NCBI GenBank assembly: GCA_003140895.1
Contig: PLLH01000069.1
Span: forward strand, 13,189 to 49,755
Source of the DNA: Elusimicrobiota bacterium
Lineage (GTDB): Bacteria; Elusimicrobiota; Elusimicrobia; F11
DNA length: 36,567 bases
Reading direction: 5' to 3'
How positions within the stretch are numbered: the stretch's first letter is position 1; each line of letters starts with the position of its first letter. Positions 10,029 through 20,479 of the stretch are shown here, one piece after another. The translations under genes and the position numbers were made by a program. A model generated the notes under the pieces. It ran no database searches. It saw only the letters and a program-made list of their open reading frames with translations, and had not been told where the DNA came from.

Positions 10029-11294
10029 ATGAAAATTTGGTCCGCCACGTTTGGATGCAAGGTCAATCAATACGAGACGGAACTCCTGCGCCAGAGGATG
10101 TCGAACGGCGGCAATCAATTTGTTCCATCGCCGATTGACGCCGATCTGTGCTTGATTAATTCCTGTTCCGTCACGGCGTTCGCGGATAAAGAATGCCGGC
10201 AGATGATTCGCATGGTGCTTCGGTCGAACCCCCACGCCCGGGTTATTGTGACGGGGTGCTATGCCACGCGGTCTCCTCAGGAATTGAAAACGATTTCCGA
10301 CCGGGTCGAAGTGTATTCAAACGCGGAGAAAGACAGCCTTCCCTCCTGCCTCGGCTTTGAAATCTCCGATCAACCGTTGGGGATTCATCAATTTTCCGGG
10401 CGAACGCGCGCCTTCTTAAAAATTCAAGATGGATGCCAGGCGCCGTGCCGCTATTGCATCATTCCCACGGTGCGTTCCACTCTCTGGAGCAAACCTGTTC
10501 GGGATGTCACGGCTGAATTTCAAGCGCTTCTCGCCAACGGCTATCAGGAAATTGTGTTAACAGGCATTCGCCTGGGCCTCTACCGCGGCAACGGTCAAGA
10601 GAAGGTTGATTTGGTGGGACTCCTGCGACTCCTTGTGGCGCTTCCCGGCACTTTCCGAATTCGTCTCTCCTCACTTGAGGTGACGGAAGTGAGCGCGGCC
10701 CTGGTTTCATTCGTGAAGGACAACCCTAAAATATGCCGCCATTTTCACATTCCGCTTCAATCCGGGGATGATCAGGTTTTGCGATCCATGGGGCGTTGGT
10801 ACGGCTCCGCCGCTTATCGGAAACGAGTGGATTTGATTAAGGGCGCGTTGCCCGATGCAGGAATCACAGCGGATGTGATGGTGGGCTACCCCACAGAAAC
10901 AGACGATCTGTTTGAAAACACATATCGGTTTATCGACGAAATAGACCTTTCCGGGCTTCACGTGTTCCGGTTTTCCGCTCGGGCCGGAACGAAAGCCGCT
11001 TCGCTTGAGCCCCTTGATCCTCGCGTGGTGAGCCGCCGGGCCGCCCGGCTGGGGGCTCTGGATCAAGCGTTGAAAAGCCGTTTCTATCAACGTTTTCAGG
11101 GGACGCTGCGGGAAGCGATCTTAGAGCCGACGGGGGAGGGGTGGACGGACAATTACATCCGAATCCAAGCTCCGGAGGGGATGACGAAGACAGGGTTGGC
11201 CCTTGTGCCGGTGTGGTCGGCGTCCGAGGAACGCGGGGAGGGGGCTTTGAAACCTCATCGGATGAAATCAACTCAGTCAACCGCCGCTGAATAA
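10029..11294 (+). CDS. mtaB: tRNA (N6-threonylcarbamoyladenosine37-C2)-methylthiotransferase MtaB
   Basis: A radical-SAM methylthiotransferase that converts t6A37 to ms2t6A37 in tRNAs decoding ANN codons. The 421 residues show the UPF0004 N-terminal domain with the three auxiliary-cluster cysteines C10, C46 and C77 (FGCKVNQYETE, INSCSVT, VTGCYA). The radical-SAM cluster is C136-x3-C140-x2-C143 (DGCQAPCRYC). A TRAM-like region closes the protein after about 350. The FGCKVNQYET start favours MtaB over MiaB or RimO. It begins 9 bases after rsmE with TAGGA as a Shine-Dalgarno. Confidence 0.92.
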   Translation: MKIWSATFGCKVNQYETELLRQRMSNGGNQFVPSPIDADLCLINSCSVTAFADKECRQMIRMVLRSNPHARVIVTGCYATRSPQELKTISDRVEVYSNAEKDSLPSCLGFEISDQPLGIHQFSGRTRAFLKIQDGCQAPCRYCIIPTVRSTLWSKPVRDVTAEFQALLANGYQEIVLTGIRLGLYRGNGQEKVDLVGLLRLLVALPGTFRIRLSSLEVTEVSAALVSFVKDNPKICRHFHIPLQSGDDQVLRSMGRWYGSAAYRKRVDLIKGALPDAGITADVMVGYPTETDDLFENTYRFIDEIDLSGLHVFRFSARAGTKAASLEPLDPRVVSRRAARLGALDQALKSRFYQRFQGTLREAILEPTGEGWTDNYIRIQAPEGMTKTGLALVPVWSASEERGEGALKPHRMKSTQSTAAE

Positions 11295-11310: not shown

Positions 11311-11655
11311 ATGGATGACTGTATTTTTTGTAAAATCGTCGCCGGAAAAATCAGCGCTCAGATTGTCCATCAAGACAAAAGCGTTTTGGCGTTCAGGGAC
11401 CTAAATCCCCAGGCTCCAGTCCATATCCTGATTATCCCCAGAAAACATATTGATCAAATTTCATCGATGGAAGAGGCGGATTTGCCTCTTCTTGGAGATA
11501 TTTATGGGGCGGTGAAAACAATCGCCCTTCAGGAAGGGATCTCCGAAACCGGTTTCCGGGTTGTGGCCAACAACGGGCCGGACGGCGGGCAGACGGTGGG
11601 TCATCTCCATTTGCATTTGTTGGGCGGACGTTTGATGCATTGGCCTCCCGGTTAA
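11311..11655 (+). CDS. hinT: HIT-family purine nucleoside phosphoramidase HinT
   Basis: HIT proteins hydrolyse adenosine phosphoramidates and related nucleotidyl adducts. The 114 residues include the catalytic histidine triad HLHLHLLGG (H98, H100, H102), the N-terminal CIFC zinc-type pair (C4, C7), the [19 protein letters not shown] core and [12 protein letters not shown]. Length and ending (MHWPPG) match bacterial HinT. It lies 16 bases after mtaB and 38 bases before rpsU. Confidence 0.95.
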
Positions 11656-11693
11656 ACGATTTTACTCCACAAGAAAAAGGCGGTGTTTACATA

Positions 11694-11894
11694 GTGGTTT
11701 TAGTGAAAGTCAGAGAAGGTGAAGCCATTGAGGAAGTGTTGCGCAGATTTAAGCGCGAATGCGAACGCAATGGAATACTCCAGGAAATCAAACGACGCGA
11801 GTTTTTTGAGTCTCCTGCGGTCCGAAAAAAGAGAAAAGCGGCCGAAGCTCGGCGCAAAATGAAGCGTCGTCTTCATCGCCAAAAGCGGCGATAA
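11694..11894 (+). CDS. rpsU: 30S ribosomal protein bS21
   Basis: bS21 is a small basic 30S protein near the anti-Shine-Dalgarno region. I start it at GTG 11694, giving 66 residues beginning [21 protein letters not shown]. That aligns with the family start (e.g. MPVIKVRENE...) and has AAGGCGG at 11677-11683 upstream. The longer in-frame ATG at 11640 would add 18 non-conserved residues and overlap hinT, so I reject it. GTG 11703 is the alternative. The [22 protein letters not shown] core and the Lys/Arg-rich tail are diagnostic. Position just ahead of dnaG-rpoD matches the classical macromolecular-synthesis operon. Confidence 0.95.
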
Positions 11895-11948
11895 GCTCGC
11901 TCCTAGGCGCCCGCCCCACGGTTCCAACATCATTGAAATATTCTTGGC

Positions 11949-11988
11949 GGACTCGTTTCCCATTACTTTATTGGACGCGAGTCCTTTT
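11949..11988 (+). terminator. Terminator/attenuator-like hairpin between rpsU and dnaG
   Basis: GGACTCG (11949-11955) and CGAGTCC (11978-11984) can form a 7-bp stem with a 22-base loop, followed directly by TTTT. The long loop and short U-tract make it a weak or partial terminator, which would suit uncoupling high rpsU from low dnaG expression, as known in the E. coli rpsU-dnaG-rpoD operon. Confidence 0.5.
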
Positions 11989-12007
11989 ATCTTGATGGGA
12001 AGCAGTC

Positions 12008-13804
12008 ATGTTTAGCAGGGAACAATTAGACCAAGTCCGATCGGCGGTTGACATCGTCGGAATCGTCAAGGAATACGTCCCTTCGCTCAAACTGACGGGC
12101 CGGTCGGCTCGCGGGTTGTGTCCCTTTCACAGCGAGCGGACGCCGTCCTTCCACGTGCTGCCGGAGAAGGGAATTTTCAAGTGTTTCGGTTGCGGGGAAG
12201 GCGGCGATGTTTTCTCTTTTCTATCGAAGATTGAAAACATTCCTTTTGGAGAAGCGGTTGAGCGATTGGGCGCTCAGGCGGGCATTGTTCTTCGGCCCGT
12301 CAAAGACGTTGAGTTTCAGGAAAAAGACAATCTACGCGATCAGATTCTCCGGGTTCTTGAAGCGGCGGCTCAGATGTATGAGGAGCAGTTGTGGGGAAGC
12401 CGGATCGGAGAAGCGGCTCTTTCTTATCTTCGGGAGCGGTCCATCACGGACGAAACGGCACGAGCCTTTCGTTTGGGGGTGGCGCCGAATCAAGGAACTC
12501 CTGTTTTCGAGGTGTTGCTCAAGAAAGGGTTCACGATCGAGGTATGTCAAAAAAGCGGACTTGTCACAAAATCGTCTGAAGGCCGGTTTTACGATCCGCT
12601 CTATGGCCGGTTGATATTTCCGATTTTTGATCCCACCAGTCGCGTGGTGGGTTTTGGCGGACGGCTACTGCCGGTGGCGAAGCGTAAAACGTTGGGCTTA
12701 TCGGAGGATGAGACGAAGGATCAGGGGCCCAAGTACATCAACTCTCCTGAGACGCCCGTTTTTTCAAAAGGGAAGTTGCTCTACGGTCTGTTTCAAGCCA
12801 AAGGAGCCATCCTTTCTTCCCGTCGAGCGATGGTGTTGGAAGGCTATATGGACGTGGTGGGGGTTCATCAGGGCGGAATTCCCCTGGGAGTGGCGACGCT
12901 GGGAACCGCTCTCACGCGTGACCATGCGAAACTGTTGAAGCGATACGCCGATGAAGTGGTGGCGTTTTTTGACCCGGATGAAGCGGGGCGGAAAGCGGCG
13001 ATGCGGGGGTTGGAGCCGCTTCTCCAGGAAGAGTTGTTTCCGCGGGTTGTGATGGAATCCTCAACGCTTGATCCGGATGAGTTGATTTTGGAAAAGGGAA
13101 AAGAGTACGTTTTAGGTCTCATCAAAGACGCCCCTGATTTCGTCGACTATATTTTGAAAACGTCCTCTTCGGATCGGATGGGACCCAGGGAAAAGTCGGA
13201 TTTGGCCGCTCTTCTCGCGTCCGTGATCGCTTATTCTCCGAATGAGGTGCTTAAATCGGAGTGGACGAAGCGGGTCGGGTTTCAGTTGGGGATCAAGCCG
13301 GAGCTGCTGGATGAGATGGTGAAAAAGGGGGGGCGGGCGCCGGAGGCGTCTCTAGTCAACGCGCGCGTTGATAAGAAGCCGAAGCGCCATCTTCCGTCGG
13401 CGGAAGAAGAATTTTTGCAACTGTGTCTTAATGTTCCGGGGTTGCCGCTCGAAGCGGACTTGGGGCCGGAGGATTTTGGGGACGAGCGGTGCCGGCGTCT
13501 CTTTGAGTTGGTTCAGCAGCGGACGCACGAGAACGGCGCCGTGACCGTCGCTTCCTTGTTGAACGAGGTTCCTGATTCAGACAAAGAGTGGTTTATGTCG
13601 CTCTCTCTTGAAGAAAAAGAATTTTTGGAACCCATGGAGAGAAGGGAACAATTGGTTCGCAATATCCGTTTAAGAAAAGACCAGGCTCGCTTGGCGGATC
13701 TGAGCCGGAGTTTATCCAGCAGCCAGGGCGATCCGGCGTTGATGAACGAGTACAAAGAATTGCTGAAACGTCTTAAAGGGACGGCGCGGCCGCCGTCGGC
13801 GTAG
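12008..13804 (+). CDS. dnaG: DNA primase DnaG
   Basis: DnaG makes RNA primers for the replisome. The 598-residue protein has the CHC2-type zinc finger C38-x2-H41...C59-x2-C62 ([18 protein letters not shown]) and the RNA-polymerase core with [16 protein letters not shown] and [13 protein letters not shown]. The Toprim region has [16 protein letters not shown] near 275-290 and [12 protein letters not shown] near 319-330. The C-terminal helicase-interacting region has EEEFLQLCL at its start. It is preceded by a 113-base spacer holding a hairpin, and followed by rpoD after 31 bases. Confidence 0.97.
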
Positions 13805-13835
13805 GTTTTATAAATCTATAGGGATAGGTGTTTAT

Positions 13836-15575
13836 ATGATTCAGGAGCATAACAAGTCCATCATCGACAATAACACCCTCATTCAAGGGCTGGTCAAGCA
13901 GGGGAAAGAGGCGGGGTACATCACGTATGAGGAAATCATGCGACGCCTCCCGGAAAACACGACCCCGGAAGATCTGGATAATTTCTTCGGCACATTGGAA
14001 GAAATGGGCATTCAGGTTTTGGAGTCGGAAGAGACGGCTCGGGCCAAGGTGGAACCGTCGGAAGGAACCCCCGCTCCTGAAGTGGAGTTGGATACCCAGA
14101 ATTCCATCCGGATGTATTTGTCTGAAATGGGCCGCGTTCCGCTTCTCACGCGAGAAGAAGAAGTCACGTTGTCCCGGAATATCAAAGAGCACGAGAAAGA
14201 GCTTCGGCTCCTGGTCCTTCAATCTCCGATCACGTTACGGGAAATCAGCAATTGGGAAACGCTTCTCGAGCAACAGGAGATGACGCCGAAAGAGCTCATG
14301 CCTCGGGGGCGTAAAACCGCGGTTGAGCTGAGCCGGATGCGGCAGAAGGTGAAGGTGGTGGCGAGATCCATCATCAAAAGCGAAAAAGTCATCAAGTCCT
14401 TGGAAGACAAGATCAACAAGCCGACTATTTCTCTGAAGGCCAAAGCCAAGCTTCAACTTCAAGCGGATCACGAGAAAAAAGAAATCGTCGCTCGCATCGT
14501 CAGTCTGAATTTGAATCAGGACAAGATCAAGCGCCTCACCAATAAAATTAAAACTCTGGCCTTTAAAATCCGCGAATGTGAAGAAGAGCTTTTTCGGTAT
14601 GAAAAACGCCTCAACATGCCGTACTTGGAGCTTCAGGGGGTCTACAATAAAGTCCTGTCCAAAAAAATCACTCCAGGGGCGTTCAAAAAATTAACCGGAT
14701 ACACCATGACCGGCATCGAAGCCACCATGGCCAACCTTCAGAACGTGGAGAGCCGGCGGCTTCGAATTCTTCAGGTGCTTCCGGTGACACGGGACAGCTT
14801 GATGGATTTGGACCGCAAAATCCGTCAGTTGGAAGAAGCGATTTTGAAGGACAAACTTAAGTTGATTCGAGCCAATCTTCGATTGGTTGTTTCTATTGCT
14901 AAAAAACATGTCGGTGCGTCTAACTTGGAACTTCCCGATTTGATTCAGGAAGGCGGTTTGGGGCTCATTAAAGCGGTGGAAAAATTTGAATGGCGCCGCG
15001 GGTTTAAATTCTCGACGTACGCCACCTGGTGGATTCGCCAATCCATCAACCGGGCTATCGCCGATCAAGCCAGAACAATCCGTATCCCCGTCCACATGAA
15101 GGAAATTATTTCCAAGTTGACCAAGGTGGCGCGCCGCTCACGGCAGGAATTGGGCCGGGATCCGACGTTGGATGAATACGCGAAGGCGCTTCACCTCTCG
15201 ATCGACAAAGTGCGGGGGATTCTGCGCATCATGCAGGATCCTGTTTCCCTGGCCACGCCGGTCGGAGAAGATGAAGACTCTTTCCTTGAAGATTTTATTG
15301 AGGATGGGTCCGGACCGGAACCGTCTGAAGGAGCGCAGGATTTTCTTCGTCACCGGGAAGTGGAACGGGCGCTCTCGACGTTAAGCGAGCGGGAAGCGCA
15401 GATTATCCGGCTTCGGTTCGGCATCGGAACGGGATATCCCCGGACCTTGGAAGAGCTGGGCCGCATCTTTAACGTCACGCGCGAGCGCGTCCGGCAGATT
15501 GAAGCCAAAGCCATTCGGAAATTGCGGCATCCGTCCCGGAGCCGCGTGCTCAAAGAGTATTTGGAAAACGGTTAA
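13836..15575 (+). CDS. rpoD: RNA polymerase primary sigma factor RpoD (sigma-70)
   Basis: The housekeeping sigma factor, 579 residues. Region 1.1 is present at about residues 10-70 ([16 protein letters not shown]...). Region 1.2 begins with [23 protein letters not shown] long helical non-conserved stretch covers about 150-330. Regions 2.1-2.4 run from [15 protein letters not shown] through [19 protein letters not shown] to [19 protein letters not shown] (about 344-405). Region 3 and region 4 follow, with [23 protein letters not shown] near 537-560 for -35 recognition. Its presence fits the TTGACA/TATACT promoters seen in this window. Confidence 0.97.
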
Positions 15576-16847: not shown

Positions 16848-16876
16848 TTGACACCGCATTGTTGCGGTATTAGACT
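16848..16876 (+). promoter_or_regulatory. Sigma-70 promoter of the mraZ-dcw cluster
   Basis: TTGACA (16848-16853) and TAGACT (16871-16876) with a 17-base spacer. The spacer contains a perfect dyad ACCGCA-TTGT-TGCGGT (16853-16868), which could be a chance feature or an operator. Transcription should start near 16883, leaving a leader of about 60 bases that contains the repeat array. Confidence 0.85.
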
Positions 16877-16926
16877 TGTGGAGCTTTGTGGATAAAAGTG
16901 GTGGAAAGTGTGGATAAAAGTGTGGA
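16875..16926 (+). promoter_or_regulatory. Phased GTG repeat array, probable MraZ operator
   Basis: The trinucleotide GTG followed by G or T recurs at exactly 10-base steps at 16878, 16888, 16898 and 16908, then again at 16920. The inner copies read AAAGTGG (16895), AAAGTGT (16905) and AAAGTGT (16917). MraZ is known to autoregulate through direct repeats with a 10-bp period: TGGG-type boxes in E. coli and AAAGTG(T/G)-N3 repeats in mycoplasmas. The array lies between the -10 box and mraZ, where bound protein would repress the whole cluster. Confidence 0.72.
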
Positions 16927-16929
16927 TAA
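16887..16929 (-). promoter_or_regulatory. Three perfect DnaA-box 9-mers in the mraZ leader
   Basis: TGTGGATAA occurs at 16887-16895, 16909-16917 and 16921-16929; its complement TTATCCACA is the consensus high-affinity DnaA box. The first two belong to an exact 14-base direct repeat (TGTGGATAAAAGTG) spaced by 22 bases. A degenerate fourth copy (TGTGGA) is at 16877. Sequence match is certain; DnaA binding is inference and the same bases overlap the MraZ-type array. Confidence 0.6.
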
Positions 16930-16944
16930 CCAGCACGAGGGACC

Positions 16945-17382
16945 ATGTACCTAGGAACGTTTGAACATACGATCGACCCCAAGGGGCGTCTCTTCATTCC
17001 CGCCAAACTACGGGAACAAAATGCGAAGGGGGACGGGAAATTTATTTTGACCCAGGGACTCGAAGCCTGCCTCTATCTTTTCGATCACGATACCTTCCAC
17101 AGCAATTTAGCGTCCAAGCTGGACACGCTTCCCGTGAAGAACCAGCAAGACGCGCGGGCCTTTAAGCGGCTTCTCTTGGCCGGCGCTCGAGACGCGACGC
17201 TGGACGACATGGGCCGGATTTTGATTTCGAAGTCCATGATTGAATTCGCCAATTTGAAAAAAGACGTGTCGATCCTTGGAGTGGGGCAGAGGATCGAGTT
17301 GTGGTCGACGTCTCAATGGCTTAAATACAACAAGCGCGCTTTGACCACATTCCAGAGGTTGGGGAAGCATTTAGAGATTTAG
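16945..17382 (+). CDS. mraZ: Transcriptional regulator MraZ
   Basis: MraZ is a DNA-binding ring-forming protein that controls the dcw cluster, usually its own first gene. The 145 residues carry two SpoVT/AbrB-like half-domains: MYLGTFEHTIDPKGRLFIPAKLRE at 1-24 in outline, and DDMGRILISKSMIEFANLKKDVSILGVGQRIELWS near 90-124. The start ATG follows GAGGGACC and conforms to the family start. It is first in the cluster, 8 bases before rsmH, and its leader holds candidate autoregulatory boxes. Confidence 0.95.
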   Translation: MYLGTFEHTIDPKGRLFIPAKLREQNAKGDGKFILTQGLEACLYLFDHDTFHSNLASKLDTLPVKNQQDARAFKRLLLAGARDATLDDMGRILISKSMIEFANLKKDVSILGVGQRIELWSTSQWLKYNKRALTTFQRLGKHLEI

Positions 17383-17390
17383 GAACTTCC

Positions 17391-18305
17391 ATGAATGAAG
17401 AGGCTCACCCTGGCGGGATGCATGAACCGGTCCTTTTAGGCGAGGTTGTGGATCTTTTACATATTCGCCCAGAGGGTCTCTATGTCGACGGGACTCTTGG
17501 TTTGGGGGGGCACGCGGAAGCCATCGTGTCCCGCTTGAGCGGACAAGGGAAATTGTTGGGCTTGGACGTGGATCCCACGAATTTGGTTCGGGCGGAGAGT
17601 CGCTTGCAACCCTTTGGAAATCGGACGACAACTCGGCGTGCGAATTTTCGGGGGTTGCAAGGGGTTCTTCGCGGCCTCGGATGGAACGCGGTTGATGGAA
17701 TGCTTTTTGATTTGGGTGTTTCCAGCCCGCATTTGGACGAAGCGGAACGTGGTTTTTCTTTTCAGAAATGCGGACCCTTGGACATGCGGATGGATCCGCA
17801 GGGGAAGAAAACAGCGTTGTCTCTCCTGCGGGAGATGAGCGAAGACGATTTGATTAAGGTTCTTATCGAATTTGGGGAAGGGCGGTTTGCCAGGAAGCTA
17901 AGCCGGGCCATACTTCATGACGTGAGACAGGACCTCATAAAAACGACTCGCGACTTGGCGGATCTCTGCCAACGAATCGTGAGAAAAAGAGGAAAGACAC
18001 ATGGCGCCACTCGAGTTTTCTTGGCTCTTCGGAATTTGGTCAATGATGAATTAGGAGCGTTGCAGGAGCTGCTTAACACGGCACCACCCTTGTTGTCGGT
18101 GGGAGGGCGGATGGGGATCATCGCTTTCCATTCGCTGGAAGATCGGTTGGTGAAGGTGACGTTCAAAACTCTGGAACAGGAGGGGCTTATGGGCATGGCA
18201 TTTAGGCGAGTCACGAAAAAGCCGGTGCAGGCGTCTCAAACGGAAACGGATCGGAATCCGCGGGCCAGAAGCGCCAAATTGCGGGTCTTGGAGAGACTCC
18301 GATGA
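17391..18305 (+). CDS. rsmH: 16S rRNA (cytosine-1402-N4)-methyltransferase RsmH
   Basis: RsmH (formerly MraW) N4-methylates C1402 in the 30S decoding centre. The 304 residues include MHEPVLLGEVVDLL, the SAM loop YVDGTLGLGGHAEAI (near 32-46), DGMLFDLGVSSPHLDEAERGFSF and GPLDMRMD, then the C-terminal segment IIAFHSLEDRLVK. The length is typical. The final TGA overlaps the next ATG as ATGA at 18302, implying translational coupling with the small ORF. Confidence 0.96.
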   Translation: MNEEAHPGGMHEPVLLGEVVDLLHIRPEGLYVDGTLGLGGHAEAIVSRLSGQGKLLGLDVDPTNLVRAESRLQPFGNRTTTRRANFRGLQGVLRGLGWNAVDGMLFDLGVSSPHLDEAERGFSFQKCGPLDMRMDPQGKKTALSLLREMSEDDLIKVLIEFGEGRFARKLSRAILHDVRQDLIKTTRDLADLCQRIVRKRGKTHGATRVFLALRNLVNDELGALQELLNTAPPLLSVGGRMGIIAFHSLEDRLVKVTFKTLEQEGLMGMAFRRVTKKPVQASQTETDRNPRARSAKLRVLERLR

Positions 18306-18514
18306 GGGGCGCTTATCACCGGTCTCAATCGTCGGCCTCTCCTTCGAAGACGTCTTCGCGAAAATATTCCGCTTCCCATGCCGAGACCACTCATTTCCGA
18401 TCGGTCATGGGCGTGATGCTCGGGCTTTGCGAGGAACACGCCGTCCCTCTTGAAGAGGGAAAGACAACGACCCCGAAAACCGCTTCCTCTCATTGGGAGG
18501 TGAGCGGCGGATGA
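18302..18514 (+). CDS. Small unrecognised protein between rsmH and ftsL
   Basis: A 70-codon ORF joined by ATGA overlaps at both ends: to rsmH at 18302-18305 and to ftsL at 18511-18514. This double coupling is the main argument that it is translated. The product is rich in Ser, Thr and His at the N-terminus (SQSSASPSKTSSRKYSASH), has a central FRSVMGVMLGLCEEHAVPLEEG segment with one Cys, and ends SSHWEVSGG. No transmembrane helix, signal peptide or known motif is apparent. It could be a small division accessory protein or a spacer peptide that maintains coupling; I do not recognise it. Confidence 0.6.
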   Translation: MRGAYHRSQSSASPSKTSSRKYSASHAETTHFRSVMGVMLGLCEEHAVPLEEGKTTTPKTASSHWEVSGG

Positions 18515-18819
18515 CGCCGCTTCGACTGGGAGATCGAGGGGTTCAACCCTCACTTCGGTTCGGGTTCTCCGTCGTTGGAGGGGTTCTCGCGATGGGGGGA
18601 GTCCTGTTTTTTTATGTTTGGTGGCCGATTCAGGCGGAGCGGGCCTTGATCACTCTCAAACGCGTGGAAAAAGAAGTCTCCCAGAAGAAACAAGAAATCA
18701 ATGAGCTGAATTCGAAATACGCTTCATTAACCTCTCTCTCTAATTTGGATGCGTGGGCCAAGAAAAACGGCCCCTGGAAATCTCCGAGTGCCAATGATAT
18801 TTTCACGATCGAATACTGA
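18511..18819 (+). CDS. ftsL: FtsL-like division protein
   Basis: FtsL is a bitopic membrane protein that with FtsB and FtsQ activates FtsW-FtsI. From ATG 18511 the product is 102 residues: a short basic cytoplasmic tail, one transmembrane helix near 18-40 (FGFSVVGGVLAMGGVLFFYVW), a coiled coil near 43-75 (LKRVEKEVSQKKQEINELNSK) and a short tail. FtsL diverges too much for firm sequence identity, so the call rests on topology and position between rsmH and ftsI. An in-frame ATG at 18493 would give six more residues, but 18511 forms an ATGA junction with the preceding ORF. Confidence 0.82.
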   Translation: MTPLRLGDRGVQPSLRFGFSVVGGVLAMGGVLFFYVWWPIQAERALITLKRVEKEVSQKKQEINELNSKYASLTSLSNLDAWAKKNGPWKSPSANDIFTIEY

Positions 18820-20479
18820 GTTCGAGAATTATTATTCCACATCCGCCCGACTCTCCTTTATCCGTTTCTCCAGCGCCCTGCTCTTCGCGGTCGTCGCCGT
18901 TCGCCTGATCTATGTCCAGGGTATTTTAAGGACCGATCTTCGGGAAAAAGCGGAGCGTCAGCTTCCTTCTGAGATGACCTATAAAGCGCCTCGCTGGCGG
19001 ATCCTGGACCGCCGCCGGCTCTCACTGGCCGAGTCCGTGCAGGTCCAATCCTGCTATGTCGATCCGACCATGCTGGGGAATAAGCCAAAAACCGCTGACA
19101 TCCTGGCTCAAACATTTGATTTGAACTCTCATGACCTCTTAAAAAAGATCCGTGAGACCAAGGGGTCTTTTTTATGGATCAAAAGGGATGTGCCGCTTTT
19201 GGCGGTCAATGCGCTGAAAGCGAAGAAAATTCTGGGGGTCGGGTTTAAATCTGAATCGAGACGCCATTATCCCCTGGGTCCATTGGCTTCGCATGCCATG
19301 GGCTTGGTGGGGTTCGACGGCCGCGGACTCTCCGGCGTCGAAGCGTCGTTTGATTCCAGCCTCTCCATTAAAAAAGCCTTGGTGCCGTCGTCAAAGCCGC
19401 TTCCGCCGGGCGATGTGGTGCTGACGATCGACAGCGGGATCCAGCAAATTGTTGAAAGAGAGCTCCAATGGGGAGTGAATAAAACCGGAGCCAAAAAAGG
19501 CATGGCGATCGTTCAGGATCCATGGACCGGAGAAATTCTGGCCATGGCGAGCGTGCCGTCGTTGTCTCTGGATCCGGATAAGCCTCCCTTGGCCGATGAA
19601 TTGCGGATTCCTCCGGTGGTTGACGTGTTTGAGCCCGGGTCCACGTTTAAAATAGTGGCCGCAGCCGGAGCGATTGAAGAGAAGCTTGTCGTTCCCGGAG
19701 AACAGTTCAGCGGTGAAAAGGGCGCCATGAAATTGGCGGGGGGACTAACGATTCACGATCATGAACCGAGACAAAGCATGACGTTCGATGATATTTGGAC
19801 ATACTCGTCCAACATCGGCGCGTCCAAAATTGGCGAGCGGTTGGGCTCTGGCCGTCTTTATCAATACGCGCGTCTTTTTGGTTTCGGCGTGTTTCCCGGT
19901 TCAGGTCTTCCCGGAGAAGCCAAAGGTTTTTTACGGCCGTTGTCCCAATGGAGCGGGGTCTCGAAGAATGTGGTTTCCTTCGGGCAAGAGGTCAGCGTGA
20001 CGGCCCTTCAATTGGTGGGGGCGTATTCGACCATCGCGAACGGGGGACGGTTGATGGAACCCACTCTGGTCAAAGGGATTGTGTCGGAAACGGGCGATTT
20101 CCTCTGGAAAGACAACCCGACCGAGGTGCGTCGCGTGATTACCAAATCCACCGCCGACCGGCTCACGCAGATTCTCGTCCGCGTCGTCGAGAAAGGGACG
20201 GGCCAGTACGCTCAACTCAGGTGGGGAAATCAAAAGGTGGCCGGCAAAACAGGAACGGCCCAGAAATTTGACAACAAGGACCGCCGCTATCATTCTGAAT
20301 TGACGCTGGTTTCGTTCTGCGGTTTTTTTCCGGCGGATAAGCCCGCGTACACGATGCTCATTGTGTTGGACGAACCGGAAGGCCAGAGGTGGGGAGGGGT
20401 CGACGCGGCGCCCATTTTTAGACGTATCGCCGAACAAATTCTCCCGGCGAAGGCGTCGCCTGGCAAGGGTGAACATTAA
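18794..20479 (+). CDS. ftsI: Septal peptidoglycan transpeptidase FtsI (PBP3, class B PBP)
   Basis: FtsI cross-links septal peptidoglycan together with FtsW. I choose ATG 18794 (MIFSRSNTEFENYYS), giving 561 residues and a 26-base overlap with ftsL; an upstream in-frame ATG at 18749 would overlap ftsL by 71 bases. One N-terminal transmembrane anchor (ARLSFIRFSSALLFAVVAVRLIYV) precedes the pedestal domain with APRWRILDRRRLSLAESV. Transpeptidase motifs are complete: SxxK in EPGSTFK near 282, SSN in YSSNIGASK near 338, and KTG in VAGKTGTAQ near 484. No PASTA domain. The stop TAA shares its last A with the murE ATG. Confidence 0.95.
   Translation: MIFSRSNTEFENYYSTSARLSFIRFSSALLFAVVAVRLIYVQGILRTDLREKAERQLPSEMTYKAPRWRILDRRRLSLAESVQVQSCYVDPTMLGNKPKTADILAQTFDLNSHDLLKKIRETKGSFLWIKRDVPLLAVNALKAKKILGVGFKSESRRHYPLGPLASHAMGLVGFDGRGLSGVEASFDSSLSIKKALVPSSKPLPPGDVVLTIDSGIQQIVERELQWGVNKTGAKKGMAIVQDPWTGEILAMASVPSLSLDPDKPPLADELRIPPVVDVFEPGSTFKIVAAAGAIEEKLVVPGEQFSGEKGAMKLAGGLTIHDHEPRQSMTFDDIWTYSSNIGASKIGERLGSGRLYQYARLFGFGVFPGSGLPGEAKGFLRPLSQWSGVSKNVVSFGQEVSVTALQLVGAYSTIANGGRLMEPTLVKGIVSETGDFLWKDNPTEVRRVITKSTADRLTQILVRVVEKGTGQYAQLRWGNQKVAGKTGTAQKFDNKDRRYHSELTLVSFCGFFPADKPAYTMLIVLDEPEGQRWGGVDAAPIFRRIAEQILPAKASPGKGEH

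Follow-up and report, generated by a model that had tools for sequence, protein, structure and literature searches.

The MraZ operators of Escherichia coli, Burkholderia cenocepacia and Mollicutes, as described in PMC7761207 and PMC8475190 (the latter citing Eraso 2014 and Fisunov 2016), consist of GTG-core repeats at 10-bp steps just after the -10 element of the first dcw promoter, followed by genes in the order mraZ-rsmH-ftsL-ftsI. The repeats of the E. coli mraZ leader are of the GTGGG type, follow the -10 element immediately and recur every 10 bp; no DnaA box was found in that leader. ChIP-seq and mutation showed that, in vivo, E. coli DnaA mainly occupies double DnaA boxes whose spacer is 2 or 3 bp long, and that binding drops sharply when 1 bp is inserted (Stringer, Fitzgerald and Wade 2024, PMC11317965). 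The targets of that regulon serve nucleotide synthesis, replication, repair and RNA metabolism, and mraZ is not mentioned (PMC11317965). The presence of DnaA at dcw genes already has precedent, the nearest being Bacillus subtilis, where DnaA occupies the ftsL promoter in vivo (Goranov 2005, as cited in the available portions of PMC8203912 and PMC11019786); those portions describe no composite MraZ/DnaA operator there and do not present an effect on division timing as established. In Caulobacter, DnaA controls ftsZ, gcrA and mipZ (PMC8203912). How bacterial division is linked to replication initiation is an open question.

The mraZ leader described here, from the phylum Elusimicrobiota, resembles the E. 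coli, B. cenocepacia and Mollicutes operators in its GTG cores, their 10-bp phase, their place just after the -10 element and the order of the genes that follow, and differs from them in that three of its five half-sites lie under DnaA boxes and its last step is 12 bp. As in the E. coli DnaA regulon, two TTATCCACA-like boxes with a 3-bp spacer stand at a promoter; unlike in that regulon, the double box overlaps the predicted operator of a second repressor. The division genes concerned are the same as those of the B. subtilis rsmH-ftsL-pbpB operon, DnaA binding being a prediction in the present case. As in Caulobacter, the replication initiator would act as a transcription factor for division genes, whereas the Caulobacter case involves activation, another gene and no MraZ sites (PMC8203912). 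The literature searched, with most subscription journals lying outside it, yielded no account of a composite MraZ/DnaA operator.

The window, the 36.6-kb stretch of DNA analysed, belongs to a 2.53-Mb genome (G000) whose family, f1, is represented by four genomes from four genera (G000, G001, G002 and G003). A search of genome contigs with MraZ as the only query gave a single relative (66% identity), from an Elusimicrobia MAG, which places the window in Elusimicrobiota; it brought no further member of f1. The locus is summarized in Table 1. The mraZ promoter has 10/12 consensus matches (0.3 such promoters expected), and its -35 and -10 elements are invariant or nearly so across the four f1 genera. 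The -10 element occupies 16871-16876 and the GTG array begins at 16878; from the promoter position, transcription is predicted to start at about 16883. GAGG from 16937, likely the ribosome-binding site, precedes the mraZ ATG at 16945. The genes then run mraZ-rsmH-(ftsL)-ftsI-murE-murF-mraY-murD-ftsW-murG, the names from murE onward resting on a reading of their sequences, with a CT398-type zinc-ribbon gene on the other side of the leader. A Pfam search gave no family match for the candidate ftsL, and an Rfam scan of the whole window returned two tRNAs only and no RNA element in the leader. Immediately before tRNA-Met, tRNA-Val, the zinc-ribbon gene and mraZ comes the macromolecular synthesis operon rpsU-dnaG-rpoD (11640-15575), so that the genes for primase and the main sigma factor neighbour the division genes in the window.

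Table 1 Features of the mraZ leader, the genes behind it and the other double-box loci of the same genome. Positions are those of the window unless a contig is named.
Feature	Location	Strand	Description
Sigma-70-like promoter of mraZ/dcw	16848..16876	+	TTGACA, 17-nt spacer, TAGACT
MraZ operator (predicted)	16878..16923	+	GTGG 16878, 16888, 16898; GTGT 16908; fifth, GTGT 16920
DnaA box 1 (predicted)	16887..16895	-	TTATCCACA, perfect match, lone box, overlaps MraZ site 16888
Double DnaA box (boxes 2+3, predicted)	16909..16929	-	TTATCCACA-CTT-TTATCCACA, 0 mismatches, 3-bp spacer
mraZ, first dcw cluster gene	16945..17382	+	PF02381, E 4.5e-28
rsmH (mraW)	17391..18305	+	PF01795, E 2e-95
Candidate ftsL	18493..18819	+	Short protein, hydrophobic stretch, between rsmH and ftsI
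ftsI/pbp transpeptidase	18749..20479	+	PF00905, PF03717
Double box, glycosyltransferase locus	C39:2007-2027 (L003)		Counterparts G001 C2, G003 C60
Double box upstream of squalene/phytoene synthase	C65:51903-51923 (L055)		Counterpart G001 C7
Two double boxes upstream of 7TM membrane protein/nucleotide-cyclase gene	C87:10587-10607, 10662-10682 (L065)		Counterparts G002 C51, G001 C17

The first four GTG cores of the array are 10 bp apart and the fifth follows after 12 bp (16908 to 16920); AAAGTG occurs at 16895, 16905 and 16917, and the whole array spans about -5 to +41 relative to the predicted start. We compared 147 mraZ leaders from the phylum, the four of f1 and 143 others. Most of them share the 10-bp GTG phasing in the same layout, and no other GTG-GTG distance comes close to 10 bp in frequency (259 instances in the 143 leaders outside f1), while shuffled leaders rarely contain even two GTG in phase. 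A pattern search of G000 for the four-GTG array gave a single match, at mraZ, and no further MraZ arrays elsewhere. The preliminary description of this leader had recognized MraZ boxes in it, and this holds: the position after the -10 element, the 10-bp phase, the near phylum-wide conservation and the uniqueness of the array in the genome support reading 16878-16923 as an ordinary, predicted MraZ operator.

Superimposed on the array is TGTGGATAA, which is TTATCCACA on the opposite strand, at 16887, 16909 and 16921, or +5 to +13, +27 to +35 and +39 to +47 from the predicted start. The coordinates first given for these words, and for GTGG/GTGT and AAAGTG, were all correct when re-checked. Of the five MraZ half-sites, the one at 16888 is overlapped by box 1 and those at 16908 and 16920 by the double box (16909-16929); no box touches 16878 or 16898. 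All three perfect TTATCCACA matches of the window lie in the mraZ leader. By pattern search, the basis of all our genome-wide statements, G000 shows no enrichment of the word (13 perfect matches, 3 of them in the mraZ leader, against 20 for the reversed control). The double box of the mraZ leader is the only one with 0 mismatches in this 2.5-Mb genome; with up to 3 mismatches allowed there are six matches in total versus four in the control, and double-box loci also exist away from mraZ.

Could such words simply coincide by chance in a GTGG/AT-rich leader? The common GTGG core and the small number of genomes would favour this, and the initial argument that three boxes in 43 bases cannot be accidental left out of account that the MraZ sites themselves dictate GTGG. 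Its conclusion nevertheless stands on a stricter footing. When every GTG/GTGG was held in place and the remaining leader letters were shuffled, three perfect boxes arose in 0/100,000 shuffles of the G000 leader and two boxes in 0.1% of shuffles of the G003 leader; a double box (for G000, two perfect boxes 2-3 bp apart) arose in 0.09% and 0.2%, respectively. The clustering thus exceeds a by-product of MraZ sites, and with the double box found again in a second genus (G003), a chance origin is highly improbable.

The boxes are largely a property of the family. In the four f1 leaders, TGTGGATAA accounts for 6/18 words of the form NGTGGNNNN, whereas outside f1 it occurs in 2 of 143 leaders (2/468 such words, 0.9 being expected by base frequencies). 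Its number per leader is three in G000, two in G003, one in G001 and none in G002; a double box stands at mraZ in two of the four genera, a single box in the third and none in the fourth. The G003 pair has one mismatch (ATATCCACA), and the partner of the perfect G001 box in the 12-bp register has three. G002, the closest relative by MraZ (76% identity), has the phased GTG array without the boxes and either lost them or never had them; this genome is a MAG, 71% complete and 14% contaminated. Together these comparisons support a separate, predicted layer of DnaA boxes over the MraZ operator, largely confined to f1. Outside the family, the leader of G008 contains one perfect box and, 12 bp away, a partner with 2 mismatches, possibly an independent gain. 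A single perfect TGTGGATAA without a partner in the leader of G161 (f14; L109) is likely due to chance.

It had been proposed that relatives keeping the phasing and losing the TTATCCACA matches would point to MraZ alone. G002 and nearly all other families do show that pattern, and two other f1 genera have TTATCCACA. The corresponding explanation is that TGTGGATAA represents f1-specific MraZ half-sites with a GTGGNTAA spacer preference that happen to match the DnaA consensus, DnaA being inactive here. It draws on the persistence of the GTG array in all relatives, including G002 with its lack of boxes, and on the tendency of f1 half-sites toward GTGGNTAA (GTGGTTAA, GTGGGTAA); MraZ spacer preference could thereby account for a lone box in phase, box 1 for example. 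Against it, (i) the MraZ operators of the 143 other leaders tolerate TGTGGTTAA but almost never contain TGTGGATAA. (ii) The 12-bp step departs from the MraZ phase and matches the double-box register, which would account for the last step of the array; GTG-GTG distances of 12 and 10 bp stand at 6:11 in f1 leaders and 13:259 in the others. (iii) The pair is present in two genera, and the same double box recurs at non-MraZ loci of the same genomes. Weakened by word enrichment, shuffles and GTG spacing, this explanation is unlikely overall; there is room for it at box 1 and less easily at the pair. The claim of three DnaA boxes accordingly holds at the level of the family and can be put more sharply, with boxes 2 and 3 as a double box, and box 1 as a lone box that may be irrelevant.

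Double boxes were also sought across the phylum. In 341 Elusimicrobiota genomes, TTATCCACA-N3-TTATCCACA with at most one mismatch gave 71 matches, compared with 2 for the reversed control, and the 12-bp double box is therefore a real signal of the phylum. Such boxes adjoin dnaA in G008 (dnaA identified by PF08299) and in G028, G236 and G242 (identified by N-terminal sequence). Pairs are preferentially spaced by 12 bp in f1 and several other families, by 11 bp in f14 and by 11 and 20 bp in f10. The 11-bp pair of f14 has a nearly invariant TTATCCACAAGTTATCCACA; in f10 the 11-bp and 20-bp pairs are often about 95 bp apart, and that family has lost mraZ almost entirely (match in 3 genomes), yet keeps strong DnaA pairs. 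Another conserved site away from dnaA is found in f6/f7 genomes (L062:4351, L063:5973, L103:1056), where a double box separates the gene for a predicted secreted protein from the next gene; a pantothenate-kinase-like gene, malate dehydrogenase or both are close by. All four double-box loci of G000, mraZ and the three others in Table 1, have a counterpart in another f1 genus, and those other loci could possibly be a DnaA regulon or a set of control sites.

G000 encodes one protein with a DnaA DNA-binding domain. Its domain IV is identical to that of E. coli at 36/72 aligned positions and retains R399, R407, D433, H434, T435, T436 and H439 (E. coli numbering). Taking the residue roles to be those of E. 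coli DnaA, we presume that it should read TTATCCACA. The assembly interrupts the dnaA gene itself with undetermined bases (N).

Two further explanations grant binding by DnaA and assign it another role. In one, the site would serve DnaA titration or nucleotide exchange, like datA or DARS, and would merely be located in the mraZ leader, controlling DnaA and not dcw transcription. Dedicated DnaA control loci of this kind, datA and DARS, are described for E. coli (PMC4585315), DARS2 contains a double box (PMC11317965), and the leader holds the sole perfect double box of G000; the placement between +5 and +47 from the dcw start, over an operator and in more than one genus, makes this quite improbable. 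In the other, the leader would be part of the replication origin. Three perfect boxes in 43 bp would fit, as would the lack of perfect DnaA boxes around dnaA-dnaN-recF of G000 (L054; C115:22000-33000), but the cluster is single, compact and inside a leader, and we regard an origin here as scarcely credible. As a candidate oriC the leader was rejected, GC skew staying positive throughout the 81 kb of the contig; there was no clear change in GC skew at the C87 locus with two double boxes either, which is kept as a candidate for the same role.

We favour, with a probability of roughly 0.6, the explanation that DnaA is a second, lineage-specific repressor whose sites overlap the MraZ operator in a composite leader. 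As in other bacteria, MraZ would bind the 10-bp-phased GTG array just after the -10 element and repress the dcw operon; in f1, DnaA would also bind the same stretch, cooperatively on the double box at about +27 to +47, with or without assistance from the lone box at about +5 to +13. Bound DnaA would repress by blocking promoter escape or elongation, a role suggested by the position of its sites downstream of the transcription start, and since the predicted sites of MraZ and DnaA lie past +1 or span it, repression is the likeliest action of either protein. Because three of the five half-sites are overlapped, MraZ and DnaA should not jointly fill the whole operator. Division-gene expression would follow free or ATP-bound DnaA and hence the replication cycle. 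Competition between the two proteins and coupling to replication initiation, as originally suggested, are plausible from the overlap of the sites. We infer the binding of MraZ and DnaA, the sign of regulation, the competition (or a joint complex) and the cell-cycle coupling from sequence. DnaA boxes upstream of ftsZ in E. coli are irrelevant to ftsZ transcription (PMC8203912), a case that calls for caution, as function should not be read from boxes alone.

A broader proposal, which we advance tentatively and from a comparison of four f1 genomes, is that the family recruited DnaA as a direct repressor of its whole division/cell-wall cluster through a double box built into an ancestral MraZ operator. 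The initiator and the dcw autorepressor would then compete for the same 50 bp, and together with the glycosyltransferase, squalene/phytoene synthase and membrane cyclase loci the cluster would belong to a DnaA regulon for envelope and division. A predicted DnaA site that physically overlaps the operator of the dcw autorepressor within one natural promoter would make a compact case open to direct testing, with the 12-bp register as a clean mutational handle for separating DnaA from MraZ.
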